From contig NZ_CP007212.1 of NCBI RefSeq assembly GCF_001411805.1, positions 62,001 through 126,000 on the forward strand: a DNA stretch of 64,000 bases, in the 5' to 3' direction. This DNA is from Burkholderia plantarii (lineage in GTDB: Bacteria; Pseudomonadota; Gammaproteobacteria; Burkholderiales; Burkholderiaceae). The position numbers and the translations under genes are program-made. The notes under the pieces were generated by a model. That model was given only the letters and a program-made list of their open reading frames with translations. It searched no databases and was not told the DNA's origin. Of this stretch, positions 3,887-59,739 are shown piece after piece (the stretch's first letter is position 1; each line of letters begins with the position of its first letter).

Positions 3887-4136
3887 TGCGCAGCGGCAAA
3901 GCACGGGACGAGGCGGAGGGACAATTGACGGCAACTGGCGGTGAATGCCGGTCAATTCACCGGTACCTCGCCTGATTTTGTGCCCAATTTTCGTGCGGCG
4001 ATGCACCATAGGGGTAAATGCTAGGTTGTCGCATACCCGGCGGTTGTTTAATCTTCGTCTCAGTTCTGATGCACCGCGAAACGAATTTTGCAGGTGGAGA
4101 ACGAGGAGACAATCGAGGCACAAAGTGCCCGGCCCC

Positions 4137-4171
4137 AAAGCGCTGTTGGACGGAATCCAACAGCGCTTTTT
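4137..4171 (+). terminator. Rho-independent terminator
   Basis: A perfect 14-bp stem (AAAGCGCTGTTGGA pairing with TCCAACAGCGCTTT), a 5-base loop and a T-run. It is 250 bp after livM, so it ends either the transporter transcript or an unrecognised short RNA starting in 3990-4130. The A-run on the other side could also serve minus-strand transcripts. Confidence 0.85.
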
Positions 4172-4960
4172 CATTTTCGGCGCTCGCCGGGGGTGTCTGT
4201 TTCGGAGTTTTTCTGTTTTGCGCCAGCCTGCAATGGGCGGGTGGTTGGTCGGCGGTTTGTTTCCCTTTTCTGGTTTTGTCTGACTTTGTCTGACGTCGCT
4301 CGGGTTCGGCGACGCGGGGTTGCGCACGGGCGTGTGGAAACTTCTTGCGCGTGGAGTGGATCGGCGAGACACGCGGATAAGTAGGCGATCGTTGTGCTTC
4401 TGGCGGTGATGAGGGTGGCGCTTGGCGTGCGTCGAGAAGGTCTTGGCGGGGCGCGTGCGGGTCGTTTGATGGGTTGCGTGCAGGATGAGTGCCGGAGCGC
4501 TGGTGTGGCTGATCGCGGAGGAAGCTTGTCCGTTGATATGCGCCATTTGATTCGAGGTTCGTGGCCGCGCGTCATGCATCGAAATGGATTGGATGTTGGA
4601 TTACCGCCGCCACAAAAGTGGGGTGTTCGCGACATCGAGGAATCGGCCACGATCTTTTCGTCGGGGATATCACCGGATCGATGAAGACCGATTCGGCCGG
4701 ACGCAGCGGATGGCGTCGCCGTCATTCGAAATCTTGGTTGCGCTTGGCATTCATGTAATCGACTGGACGTGGATGTGAGACCAACCATCGATACGATGCC
4801 GGATCGAACAGCGTGGTGTCATGCACGATTCGCGCGCTGCGAACGCGCCATTTCATCCTACCGAGTCTGTCGCTTCAGAGCCTCGTTGAACCCGCGAGCC
4901 ATCGATCCCCTTCATCCGGCTTGCGATGGCTTGCACATTCCCGAGTTGAGGGAGCACTAT

Positions 4961-20703: not shown

Positions 20704-20917
20704 ACGAAAAAAAGCGGGCTTAAGAGCCCGCTAAAAACCACACGCTACGGGGTTAGCGCGAGGAGACCAAAGGTGGAACGCAATCGGCGTGGGCCGATCA
20801 CGATTCCAACAGGGATGCCCCTGATAAGGGATTCGGCGCAAGGCCGACGGACTATTAAAGTGCATCGCATCCGCTCACACGCCGCACTAGAAAGACCACA
20901 TCCGTGTTGAAACCGTG
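20704..20917 (-). ncRNA. Probable structured small RNA (no family recognised)
   Basis: On the minus strand this stretch folds into successive hairpins: CGGC/GCCG near 20845, CCCT/AGGG near 20825, a long stem TGGAA..ATCGGC/GCCGAT..TTCCA (20772-20810), CGCTA/TAGCG near 20743-20760, and finally GCGGGCT/AGCCCGC with seven T residues (terminator, 20706-20731). A CACAAT -10-like box at 20929-20924 would start transcription near 20917, giving about 210 nt. No protein-coding potential is apparent, and the open frame across it has no good start. It does not resemble tmRNA, SRP RNA or RNase P; I could not align it to 6S RNA. The terminator is nearly symmetric and could also end the acyl-CoA synthetase transcript. 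Confidence 0.5.
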
Positions 20918-20951
20918 AGAGCCATTGTGGGCGAATTGGGAAAGTAGCGCG

Positions 20952-47420: not shown

Positions 47421-48500
47421 TCAGTCGCGCGCCCGGGGCCACGCGATCGCGTCCCAGTCGAACGCGCGATAGGCCGCCGCCACCGCCGCGAGGTGGGCCG
47501 GCTCGTCGCTCGCGTGCCGGTCGCGCAGGGCGGCCGGCACGTCGAGGCGTGCCGCCACGCAGTGCGGATAGTCGCGCACGCGCATTTCGGGCGTGATGCT
47601 GGTGAAGCAGGCCAGCGTGGGCACCTCGAAGCCGTCGGCGACATGGATCGCCGAGCTGTCGGCGCCGACCAGCACGCGCGCGTCGCGGACCCAGGCGAGA
47701 TAGGCGGCGGTGTCGGGCGACAGCGCGGACACGTCGGTGTAGGCGCGATGCGCGACCGGGCCGAAGCCGGCCACCGGCAGCCCGTAGCGCCGCGCGATCC
47801 GTTCGACGAGCGCGGCGCGTTCGGCCGCCGGAATGCTGCGCAGCGGCGTGCTCGCATCGGCGCAGAGCAGCGCGTAGGGGCGCCGGCGCCAGCCGTCCGG
47901 CAGCGCTGGCAGTGCCAGCCGCGCGAGCCAGCGGTTGCGCCTGGCGGCGGCCGGGATCGACGCCGGATCGGCGCCGAGCGCGTCGAGGAAGTAGTCGATC
48001 ATCGGCAGCGTCGCGAACGCGGGCCGATAGAGCTGGTTGCCGACGTCGATGCGCGTCGCCGCCCGCGGCAGCGCGTCGAGCGGCCAGGGCAGCGTGCGTG
48101 GCGCCGCGGGCTCGCTGCCGGCGAGCCGGTACAGCGCCTCGACGTGGGCCGCGAGGCGCGCCGGCCGATACAGCACGAAGCGCAGCGCCGGATGCGCGGC
48201 GCGCAACGCGGCCAGCGCGGTCAGCCCGATGATCGAGTCACCTAGCGCGACACCCATGCCGTTGATCACATGGACTTCCGTGAGCCGCGCATAGTCGAGC
48301 CGGAACGGCCGCTCGGCCGCGTTGAGGAGGCCGGCATCGGCCTCGGTGGCCGCGATGTGGCCGGCCGGTGACTGGCCCGCCACTTCCAGATCGTAGGACG
48401 CGACGAGCCTGCGCTCGGGCGCGAGCAGCGTGCCGGGATGGCGCAGCGCGTCGAACCGGCTCGGCGCGGCTTCGCCGGCGGCCGGCGCTTGGGGTTTCAT
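47421..48500 (-). CDS. Glycosyltransferase family 9 / heptosyltransferase-like protein
   Basis: 359 residues. The pattern VINGMGVALGDSIIGLTALAALRAAHP, VLYRPARLAAHVEALYRLAG and, in the C-terminal half, YALLCADASTPLRSIPAAE with VLVGADSSAIHVADGFEVPTLACFTSI is that of ADP-heptose:LPS heptosyltransferases, where DSSAIHVADG is the nucleotide-sugar site. No membrane helix. It is not in a lipopolysaccharide cluster here, and the N-terminal 70 residues are unlike WaaC/WaaF, so a different sugar or acceptor is possible. Confidence 0.75.
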   Translation of the reverse strand: MKPQAPAAGEAAPSRFDALRHPGTLLAPERRLVASYDLEVAGQSPAGHIAATEADAGLLNAAERPFRLDYARLTEVHVINGMGVALGDSIIGLTALAALRAAHPALRFVLYRPARLAAHVEALYRLAGSEPAAPRTLPWPLDALPRAATRIDVGNQLYRPAFATLPMIDYFLDALGADPASIPAAARRNRWLARLALPALPDGWRRRPYALLCADASTPLRSIPAAERAALVERIARRYGLPVAGFGPVAHRAYTDVSALSPDTAAYLAWVRDARVLVGADSSAIHVADGFEVPTLACFTSITPEMRVRDYPHCVAARLDVPAALRDRHASDEPAHLAAVAAAYRAFDWDAIAWPRARD

Positions 48501-57136: not shown

Positions 57137-58255
57137 TCAGGCGGCCAGCACCTTGCCGTTGCGCACGAACGGGAGTTTTACCACGCGCGCGGGAAGGTTT
57201 TTGTCCCGGATTCGCACCTGCACGGTCGCACCGGCGGCGACGCCGGCCGGCACGCGCGCGAACGCGATCGACTCCTGCATGGTGGGCGAGAACGTGCCGC
57301 TCGTGATCTCGCCCTCGCCGTGCTCGGTCAGCACGGTCTGGTGGGCGCGCAGCACGCCGCCGGCCTTGCCGTTTTCCTTCTCGAGGATCAGGCCGACGAA
57401 CGCGCTGCGCTGGCCGCGGGCCTCGAGCGCGGCGCGGCCGACGAACTCGCGCGGCGTGGTGAGATCGACGGTCCAGGCGAGTCCCGCGTCGAGCGGGCAG
57501 ACGCTGTCGTCCATGTCCTGGCCGTAGAGGTTCATGCCGGCTTCGAGGCGCAGCGTGTCGCGCGCGCCGAGCCCGGCCGGGCGCACGCCGTGGGCCGCCA
57601 GCGCGTGCCAGAGCGCCTCGACGTGGGTGGCCGGCACGATGACCTCGAAACCGTCCTCGCCGGTGTAGCCGGTGCGGGCCACGGTCAGCTCGCCGAACGG
57701 CGTGTCCGCCACCTGCGCGGCGTTGAACGGCTTCAGTTCGCTGGTGGCGGCGCGCGCGGCCGGCACCGTGTCCCACACCTTGGCGCGCGCGTTCGGGCCT
57801 TGCACGGCGACGATCGCGAGATCGCGGCGCGGCGTGATGTCGAGCCCGAAGCCGCCCTCGGCGTTCAGTTGGGTGAACCAGGCCAGATCCTTCTCGGCGG
57901 TGCCGGCGTTCACCACCACGCGGAAGAAGTTTTCGGTGAAGTAGTAGACGATCAGGTCGTCGATCACGCCGCCTTCGGGGTTCAGCAGGCACGAGTAGAG
58001 CGCCTTGCCGGGCGTGCGCAGCTTGCCGACGTGGTTGGCGATCGCGTGTTCGAAGAAGGCGCGCACGCGCGCGCCGCGGAAATCGACGACGCACATGTGC
58101 GACACGTCGAACATGCCCGCGTCGGTGCGCACGGCGCGGTGTTCCTCGAGCTGGGAGCCGTAATTGACGGGCATGTCCCAGCCGCCGAAGTCGACCATGC
58201 GGGCGTTGAGCGCGGCGTGCGCGGCGTGCAGCGGGGTGTGTTTGAGTGCGGTCAT
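57137..58255 (-). CDS. gcvT: Aminomethyltransferase (glycine cleavage system T protein)
   Basis: Transfers the methylene group to tetrahydrofolate, releasing ammonia. 372 residues from ATG 58255. [22 protein letters not shown] is the family N-terminus; [18 protein letters not shown] and [18 protein letters not shown] follow. First gene of the operon, with the tandem glycine riboswitch 100 bp upstream. The longer frame beginning at 58351 is rejected because it would translate the riboswitch-adjacent leader. Confidence 0.98.
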
Positions 58256-58355
58256 CGGGGCCTCGGGGTTCCGCTCGCCCATGGCGGGCGAACGCGAAAA
58301 CAAAACGGCGATGCAACGAGGCGCAAGCGCGTGATGCCGCCTGCGATTCATTGCA

Positions 58356-58611
58356 GCCCCTCTGTCCTCGATACCTGAGAGATTGCGCCGCCGTTGCCGG
58401 CCTGCGCGCGCCCCTTCGGTGGGCAGCCTGCCGATGCTCGCGCACGTGGCTACTGCCGCTCTCCAGAGTCCGAACTCCGCCGCGCGACGCGATTGCGTGG
58501 CGCGGGTGATCCGACGCGTTCGGTCCTTTTGCCTGAGAGTTTCTGGGTATGCCCCTTCGGCGGCACGACCGGTTTGATGACAAACGGTCGCACGCTCTCC
58601 CGACGCGTGCC
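58356..58611 (-). promoter_or_regulatory. Tandem glycine riboswitch upstream of gcvT
   Basis: On the minus strand two glycine aptamers follow each other. Aptamer 1 shows GGGAGAGCG, GCCGAAGGGGC and CTCTCAGGCAAAAGGAC (about 58603-58523). Aptamer 2 shows CTGGAGAGCG, ACCGAAGGGGC and TCTCTCAGG, then GAGGACAGAGGGGC (about 58470-58356). These are the conserved P1, J and P3 elements of the class. The tandem form is usually an activator of gcv genes when glycine is abundant. Confidence 0.95.
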
Positions 58612-58749
58612 GGCGAATTTACGCGAGGCCGGATGGGTTGTCAATTTGCTCAAATTGACGTCGCTTCACGACAAGCGCGGCGGTGCGTGACGACCGGCGG
58701 GCGGGCGGCAGGCGCGTGGCGCGGGTGTGGTGGAGGTGGCGGGAGCGGC

Positions 58750-58974
58750 TGGGGATAACGCGGTGGAAAAGCTGTGGATTGACAGGGGGCAAGTGAGGGT
58801 CTGGTAGTGGAAAAGCCGGTGGATCGCGCGTGGACAAGCCCGGGATAAGCCTGTGGAGAAGCGGTGGATCGCCAGGGGAAAAGCCTGGGGGCAAGTAGCG
58901 GGAAAAGCGGTGGACAGGCACGGGATAACCGCGGGGATAACGCAGGGATAAACAGTGGATCGACGGTGGACAAT
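58750..58974 (+). repeat. Phased array of about 19 degenerate GTGGATAAGC-like units (DnaA-box-like)
   Basis: Units begin near 58750, 58763, 58773, 58784, 58806, 58818, 58829, 58840, 58852, 58862, 58874, 58886, 58898, 58908, 58920, 58932, 58943, 58954 and 58965, i.e. every 10-13 bp with one double gap. Examples: TGGGGATAAC, TGTGGATTG, CGTGGACAAG, CGGGATAAGC, TGTGGAGAAG, AGGGGAAAAG, GGGGATAAC, GGTGGACAAT. The consensus is close to the reverse of a DnaA box (TGTGGATAA); best units match 8 of 9. All point the same way. Confidence 0.8.
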
Positions 58975-58980
58975 CCCGGC

Positions 58981-59050
58981 GGCGACCGGCGACCGGCGAC
59001 CGGCGACCGGCGACCGGCGACCGGCGACCGGCGACCGGCGACCGGCGACC
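58981..59050. repeat. Ten exact copies of the 7-bp repeat GGCGACC
   Basis: A perfect uninterrupted tandem array, 70 bp. Seven is not a multiple of three, so it spells a heptapeptide (AGRRSPV) over 21 bp in minus-strand frames, but no real gene covers it. The perfection points to recent slippage, so the copy number is likely variable between strains. Confidence 0.95.
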
Positions 59051-59234
59051 GGCAAGGCGGTGAACGGGAAAATGAACATCGACAGGGCGCGGTCGGGTGA
59101 TCGCGCCCGCCAGCACGCGGCGCGTGCGTGATCCGCAGCGCGGCGGCGGTGGCGTGGAAACAGAAGAGGTGTCAGGCCGGAAGCGCGCGGCAGGTGACGT
59201 ACCCGCGCGGCCGGAGCCATCGCCGGCGCCGGAC

Positions 59235-59645
59235 TCAGACGCCGATCGCGCGCGCGGCCGTGTCGAGTTCCTGGTTCAGCACGCGCTGCTCGTCGGCGGT
59301 CAGGCCGCCGCCGTGCTGCGCGCCCATGTCGGTCGCTTCCTGGCGGATCACGTCGAGCCGGCGATGCAGCGCCTGGCCTTGCGGCGGCGGGTAGTTGCCG
59401 CCGTTCACGCGCGTGTCGATGCGGCGGCCGAGGCTGTCGATCCGGCCGAGCACGTCGTTCATGCGTTCGACGCCGATCGGCGTCGGTGCCGGTTGCGGCG
59501 GCGGAGGCAATGGCTGGGCAGGGGCCGGTTGAGTGGGACGCGGGCGCGGCGCCGGCCGCTTCGCCGGCGGTGGCGGCGTGATGACACACGCGGCCAGCGA
59601 GGCGACGAGGGCGGCGCCGACGGCCGTGCGGATCAACCGTTGCAT
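59235..59645 (-). CDS. Small lipoprotein of unknown function
   Basis: 136 residues. The start MQRLIRTAVGAALVASLAAC has a lipobox LAAC with the acylated Cys at 20. A Pro-rich linker (about 22-55, PPPPAKRPAPRPRP and similar) would span the envelope, followed by a small helical domain (MNDVLGRIDSLGRRIDTRVNGG, HRRLDVIRQEATDMG, TADEQRVLNQELDTAA). Likely inner face of the outer membrane or periplasmic. No known function; stands alone between a terminator-like hairpin and the repeat region. Confidence 0.8.
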   Translation of the reverse strand: MQRLIRTAVGAALVASLAACVITPPPPAKRPAPRPRPTQPAPAQPLPPPPQPAPTPIGVERMNDVLGRIDSLGRRIDTRVNGGNYPPPQGQALHRRLDVIRQEATDMGAQHGGGLTADEQRVLNQELDTAARAIGV

Positions 59646-59678
59646 GGATCATTCTCCTGATTGTCGTATCGGTGAAGC

Positions 59679-59739
59679 AAAAGCCGGCCCGGGAGCCTCC
59701 CCCGCGATCCCGGCGGGGGCCAGCTGCGGACCGGCTTTT
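59679..59739. terminator. Bidirectional terminator-like hairpin
   Basis: Outer arms AAAAGCCGG (59679-59687) and CCGGCTTTT (59731-59739) enclose a second stem CCCCCG/CGGGGG. On the minus strand it would end the oxidoreductase transcript before the lipoprotein gene. Confidence 0.65.

Follow-up and report, generated by a model that had tools for sequence, protein, structure and literature searches.

Clusters of DnaA boxes outside oriC are already known. In B. subtilis and S. coelicolor such clusters lie near but outside the origin and are described as holding back initiation (PMC5295017, PMC4585315). B. subtilis has six of them, with a strong effect reported only if all are removed (PMC5295017, PMC4585315); their joint removal leads to early initiation, and the review that says so doubts that they play a significant role (PMC5295017). 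In E. coli the non-coding datA locus lies near oriC, carries DnaA boxes and exerts negative control on initiation; it is described as having five boxes, together with an IHF site that is essential. A titration logic has been proposed for datA and the B. subtilis clusters (PMC5295017), and also for the excess of boxes near oriC in E. coli, where the role of such titration in replication timing is currently argued (PMC12371093). Inside E. coli oriC, the low-affinity sites are described as departing from the box at two or more bases, pointing the same way with 2-bp gaps between them, and filling cooperatively; they form arrays of four sites each, R5M-t2-I1-I2 and C3-C2-I3-C1 (PMC4451416). On chromosome 1 of Cupriavidus metallidurans, a tight cluster away from dnaA, with four one-mismatch boxes within 65 nt, is named as putative only (PMC2864759).

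We have analyzed an array of DnaA-box-like repeats in the spacer upstream of gcvT in a Burkholderia genome (G000) of 8.08 Mb in three contigs. The window, which is the whole stretch of 64,000 nucleotides that was analysed, corresponds to C1:62001-126000. Like the E. coli oriC arrays, the array consists of same-direction degenerate 9-mers at a pitch of about 11 bp, and the gaps between the 9-mers are mostly 2 or 3 bp, near the 2-bp gaps of those arrays; unlike them, it has about 22 units, lies outside oriC and, as in its relatives at gcvT, has no consensus anchor box. There is one array per genome, in contrast to the six clusters of B. subtilis, and its regular one-direction pitch of 11-12 bp is a feature that goes unmentioned in the passages of PMC5295017 and PMC4585315 on the B. 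subtilis and S. coelicolor clusters. It resembles datA in being non-coding, box-bearing and near oriC, and may resemble it in controlling initiation negatively, but it has no IHF match. Its number of units also sets it apart from the four boxes of the C. metallidurans cluster. Our searches of the open-licence literature turned up no description of such an array for either Burkholderia or Pandoraea, and with respect to that literature it is a variant not reported before.

Structure of the array and its surroundings

The features of the locus, in window coordinates, are the following.

58726..58973, plus strand: array of 22 DnaA-box-like units (TGTGGATAA sense) at 11-12 bp pitch, the first two weak, clear from 58750
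58980..59053, plus strand: simple repeat (CGGCGAC)10.6 adjoining the array
58616..58644, minus strand: gcvT promoter-like site TTGACA-17-TAAATT, 10 of 12 consensus matches
58511..58611, minus strand: glycine riboswitch aptamer (RF00504, 46.0 bits)
58352..58476, minus strand: glycine riboswitch aptamer (RF00504, 37.9 bits)
57137..58351, minus strand: gcvT ORF, start codon not settled (TIGR00528, 383 bits)
59235..59645, minus strand: 136-aa lipoprotein-like ORF upstream of the array, judged by eye

The array thus lies between the lipoprotein-like gene, which has no family match in Pfam or NCBIfam, and the gcvT promoter with its glycine riboswitches. The clear units (58750-58973, or C1:120750-120973) are in an intergenic spacer, and the three minus-strand ORFs of 107-328 aa that overlap the array match no Pfam family. 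When 58750-58974 was compared with 2000 dinucleotide shuffles, autocorrelation at lags 11, 23 and 34 had z scores of 6.9, 6.3 and 5.4, respectively; in the shuffles the largest z over lags 1-40 was 3.8 at the 99.9th percentile. A chain search, rewarding likeness to TGTGGATAA and a spacing of 10-14 bp only, recovered 22 units with a score of 94.8; the opposite strand of the locus scored 7.2. Similar arrays aside, no chain scored above 23.6 in the remainder of the window and 20 further stretches of 20 kb (927 kb over the two strands). All units have one orientation and lie on one strand. Eight nonamers with at most two mismatches to the DnaA box fall within 236 bp on a single strand (33.9 per kb; elsewhere in the window 1.0), an excess of box-like sites in non-coding DNA such as marks clusters outside oriC. 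The best units, two in number, match the box at 8 of 9 positions.

These results bear out part of the initial annotation, namely a one-direction array of units at 11-12 bp whose best members match a DnaA box at 8 of 9 positions, in a window that does not contain dnaA: the Bac_DnaA domain is encoded at the contig start (C1:692-1174), about 120 kb from the array. Other claims did not hold. The array had been described as having nearly one unit to each turn of the DNA, with all units on the same face of the helix. Its dominant period is 11.35 bp, and the power at 10.5 bp is near the median; since the period exceeds 10.5 bp, successive units turn by about 29 degrees, for DNA at 10.5 bp per turn, and share no common helix face. 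What was read as a gap of exactly two periods contains one degenerate unit, AGGGTCTGG, in register.

Several further elements were seen nearby. A palindrome, GTCAATTTG-CT-CAAATTGAC, at 58640-58659 of the window overlaps the gcvT -35; most of the displayed Burkholderia spacers retain its left arm and the CAAA after it, but not the full palindrome. Window positions 20706-20934 and 4062-4172 belong to the known Burkholderia sRNA families RF02423 and RF02865. Outside the window, two small clusters with two exact DnaA boxes each lie about 3 kb apart at C1:44851-45047 and 47974-48156 (L054). This pair is near a local GC-skew minimum and is a candidate for oriC; the array is about 73 kb from it.

Conservation among Burkholderia

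The flanks of the array were matched in all 65 Burkholderia genomes, the array itself in four (G000, G014, G015 and G050). In the remaining 61, the left alignment piece stops at query base 600 or before. Among 110 spacers cut out, five rows, which represent four genomes because L026 and L064 are apparently one contig, have 12-14 near-unit matches, all confined to a single strand; every other row has at most one forward and two reverse matches. Array-less spacers are 38-326 bp long, save three of 1.0-1.4 kb that also contain no array. The genus can therefore do without it. Where present, the array has 20-27 units by the chain search, with a mean spacing of 11.2-11.4 bp, and 78 of the 87 spacings are 11 or 12. 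Loss of this spacing in close relatives, which the initial annotation named as grounds for abandoning its reading, was thus not seen in any of the four array-bearing genomes. The array shares its strand with dnaA in G000, G014 and G015 and follows that gene at a distance of 117-136 kb.

Refined segmentation of the four arrays yielded 89 units of the form G[T/G]GGA[C/T]AAGC, whose GGA positions are the most constant (kept in 84, 89 and 73 units, respectively). When the four spacers were aligned with MAFFT, pairwise identity averaged 0.723 in the cores, 0.525 in the linkers and 0.608 outside the array (core versus linker, rank test p 7e-6), figures to be read knowing that the segmentation follows the DnaA core and that alignment of repeats favours core-on-core placement. 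The difference between core and linker is largest at zero phase shift among shifts of -5 to +6. The suggestion that phase matters more than exact sequence was consequently too strong, as core positions are conserved over linkers.

These data bear on the view that the array is a functionless minisatellite, now drifting, which slippage built from an 11-12 bp unit in a spacer prone to repeats. The spacer is prone to repeats in that (CGGCGAC)10.6 adjoins the array and other Burkholderia have (GGTGAGC)n in the same place, and the array is missing from 61 of the 65 genomes. The cores, however, are conserved over the linkers, in register, where a minisatellite would have core and linker diverging alike. 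Together with two results given below, the retrieval of oriC arrays by a profile of these units and the persistence of individual units in another genus, this makes the minisatellite an unlikely explanation. As for the simple repeats themselves, the same spacer carries different 7-bp repeats in different species, (CGGCGAC)n here and (GGTGAGC)n in L029 and L030.

Relation to the DnaA box

The DnaA box of Burkholderia was taken as TTATCCACA (PMC4948915, PMC7364216). The units depart from it in several respects. None of them matches TTWTNCACA in any of the four gcvT arrays, and the looser HHMTHCWVH is matched by at most two units per gcvT array. The last base of the box, A9, is weakly kept, with T in 27% of the gcvT units at that phase; in the origins of B. 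cenocepacia, a CACAG motif is described as ending almost every DnaA box (PMC7364216). The gcvT units almost always have G at position 5 (0.97), where the E. coli consensus accepts any base. As the low-affinity sites of E. coli oriC show, weak sites can be functional (PMC4451416).

We searched for related sequences with a profile model, R1, trained on the four gcvT arrays alone. It rests on 10 segments of five units each, kept out of 36 because they aligned in register. At E 1e-4 or better R1 matches 37 of the 398 genomes of the family, that is three gcvT arrays and 34 others (14 in g11, 7 in g12, 5 in g10, 6 in g3 and 2 in g20), and the decoy R3, made of the same segments backwards, matches one of 398. 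Six of the 27 R1 loci fetched from other genera have dnaA beside them, and these are all six fetched loci of the small-genome genus g12, which we take to be Polynucleobacter: five lie in the dnaA-dnaN gap and one next to dnaA. Flanking families were confirmed for L177 of this group, and the seventh g12 match is not among the fetched loci. At least four of the 27 matches are coding repeats and were set aside (L180 and L197 in g3, L189 and L200 in g20); they were judged by eye, with ORFs listed for L189 and L200. That a model built on gcvT arrays finds DNA adjacent to dnaA in g12 and long arrays near dnaA in g11, at 37 genomes against one for the decoy, supports the kinship to DnaA boxes proposed at the outset.

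A second, mixed model (R2; 21 of 24 chosen segments) includes oriC and g11 sequence, so its matches in such DNA are not independent. Among 369 genomes of the class, R2 matches 10 in addition to G000. The two of these matches that were checked by family, L259 and L260, are both in the dnaA-dnaN gap and contain opposed head-to-tail boxes in oriC-like pairs.

The departures from the box could also mean that the units are sites for another double-strand DNA-binding protein, one that reads GKGGAYAAGC. The constancy of GGA is not the pattern expected of DnaA throughout, and the weakness at A9 points the same way. We consider such a protein improbable, given that R1 finds dnaA-dnaN gaps in another genus.

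Away from the gcvT locus, R1 gave no match better than E 0.005 in G000, G014, G015 or G050 (150 candidates scored per genome), on which grounds we reject a dispersed repeat family; the scatter of similar arrays over the genome that would have told against the first reading is likewise not observed. One few-unit match at E 0.005 (L160, G000 C1:2772376-2772412) is weak and lies beside short repeats, GCCTGATAGCACGA. A search of a plasmid collection returned two weak matches over 5-10% of the query, neither of them to the array.

Arrays in other genera

Outside Burkholderia, long arrays occur in g11, presumably Pandoraea. Of 16 measured loci, 15 have 20-25 units in one orientation with a mean spacing of 11.1-11.3 bp; the odd one (L174, in G285) has 16 units and flanking ORFs unlike those of the other g11 loci displayed, and was left out of the alignment, which covers 10 of 11 loci. 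R2 matches 28 of the 32 g11 genomes at E 1e-3 or better, some of them weakly. Of 13 array-bearing genomes in which dnaA was located, 12 have the gene and the array on one contig, the array following at 34-129 kb, and in 11 of these 12 the array is on the dnaA strand (G216 has it on the opposite one). As at gcvT, the cores are more conserved (0.742) than the linkers (0.595) or the sequence outside the array (0.663), under the same reservation, and the difference is again largest at zero shift. TTWTNCACA occurs one or two times in five of the six g11 arrays examined. Box position 5, the N of that consensus, is among the least conserved core positions in g11 (0.64), like positions 3 and 1. In 14 of 16 loci the unit after the first good box is TGTCGATAA, and single units keep their identity across species; homogenising slippage of a minisatellite would erase such identity.

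The g11 arrays stand beside other genes, so that any common descent would be conjectural. In the ten aligned loci a gene (DUF4148 by Pfam in L175) is followed by a hairpin with a T-run and then by the array; in L281 a dienelactone hydrolase gene follows the array, with a UvrA-like gene upstream. These neighbours weigh against DnaA-dependent transcription control of gcvTHP, which would tie one-carbon supply to replication. In favour of such control, about 100 bp separate the start of the array in the window from the promoter-like site of gcvT, which lies downstream. Yet the 20-kb stretches around five g11 arrays contain no gcvT match, and in the loci checked it is DUF4148 and dienelactone hydrolase genes that adjoin the arrays, so this role seems highly improbable.

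Shorter arrays occur elsewhere. In g10, seven of eight loci have 5-11 units; in the eighth, L185, the chain ran into unlike sequence. The short g10 arrays L179 and L246-L249 are in large fragmented genomes, and prkA adjoins the array in L179 (Pfam, L179 only). The g3 arrays L273-L276 have seven units and include an exact DnaA box; in G309, G341 and G361 they precede dnaA by 40-50 kb (G341 and G361 being taken as circular for this distance). G234, also of g3, has a 14-unit array (L193) 523 kb from dnaA, from which it follows that nearness to dnaA is not general.

Origin, IHF and RNA

That the array might be part of an origin, as the initial annotation allowed, is rejected on GC skew and composition. 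The skew is positive on both sides of the array, with about 5 kb seen to the right, and it switches sign between dnaA and a point at about 48 kb. No AT-rich unwinding element was found in 58500-59250, where the lowest GC over 50 bp is 0.50, at the gcvT promoter. Distances of arrays are measured here to dnaA and not to a proven origin. The c1 origin of B. cenocepacia is called uncertain in a paper that describes the origin regions (PMC4948915), and in C. metallidurans the skew switch is about 90 kb from dnaA (PMC2864759).

Membership of the datA/DARS class is rejected for want of an IHF site. With the E. coli IHF consensus, WATCAANNNNTTR, none was found at one mismatch or fewer within 300 bp of any of the four gcvT arrays. 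The same consensus has one exact match in 11 g11 loci, in L280.

An RNA element is rejected as well, since neither strand folds clearly better than its shuffles (z +0.77 for the minus strand, -1.5 for the plus strand). This result is compatible with a Rho-utilisation (rut) site in the minus-strand transcript of the lipoprotein-like gene, which would insulate the gcv riboswitches. Such sites follow a rule of 11-13 nt, and the transcript would be C-rich and G-poor (C 0.43, G 0.18), with YC dimers every 11-12 nt and a fold no better than shuffles. The sole terminator-like match on the minus strand is a weak 6-pair stem (58976-58957), about as many as shuffles give, and a transcript running on from the dienelactone hydrolase gene of the g11 locus L281 would likewise be C-rich. 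In the g12 locus L177, by contrast, the sense strand of dnaA is the G-rich strand, and the g11 arrays behind the DUF4148 gene follow a hairpin and T-run and again have the G-rich strand as sense. A rut site is thus very unlikely. The plus strand, with some 20 GGA motifs as its most constant core, might instead encode a sponge RNA for CsrA/RsmA, but it has no promoter-like site in 58300-59700 and its fold stands out little from the shuffles; we give this idea almost no credence.

Proposed role and significance

We think it probable, judging by sequence and distribution, that the array binds DnaA outside oriC and acts as a sink that limits re-initiation. About 20 weak, head-to-tail DnaA-box-like 9-mers would load DnaA, presumably in its ATP form, cooperatively as a filament. 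Since the array is on the dnaA side of the chromosome, it would be copied soon after initiation and so double early. The doubled array would take up DnaA and lower the free pool, and the DnaA thus withheld from oriC would damp re-initiation. DnaA binding, the preference for ATP-DnaA, cooperativity, titration and the effect on initiation are what we infer from the arrays.

A broader proposal is that long one-direction arrays consisting of hardly anything but low-affinity sites, at orisome pitch, form a new class of initiation-control loci in the Burkholderiaceae. They would be cooperative, ATP-DnaA-specific sinks with a sharp threshold that evolved repeatedly, next to various genes, on the chromosome's dnaA side. 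We put this forward tentatively, as something that may well prove wrong. A compact and removable array of about 20 weak sites, with a counterpart matched in 28 of the 32 genomes of one genus, would offer a place where titration and the growth of ATP-DnaA filaments could be tested while oriC and datA are left untouched.
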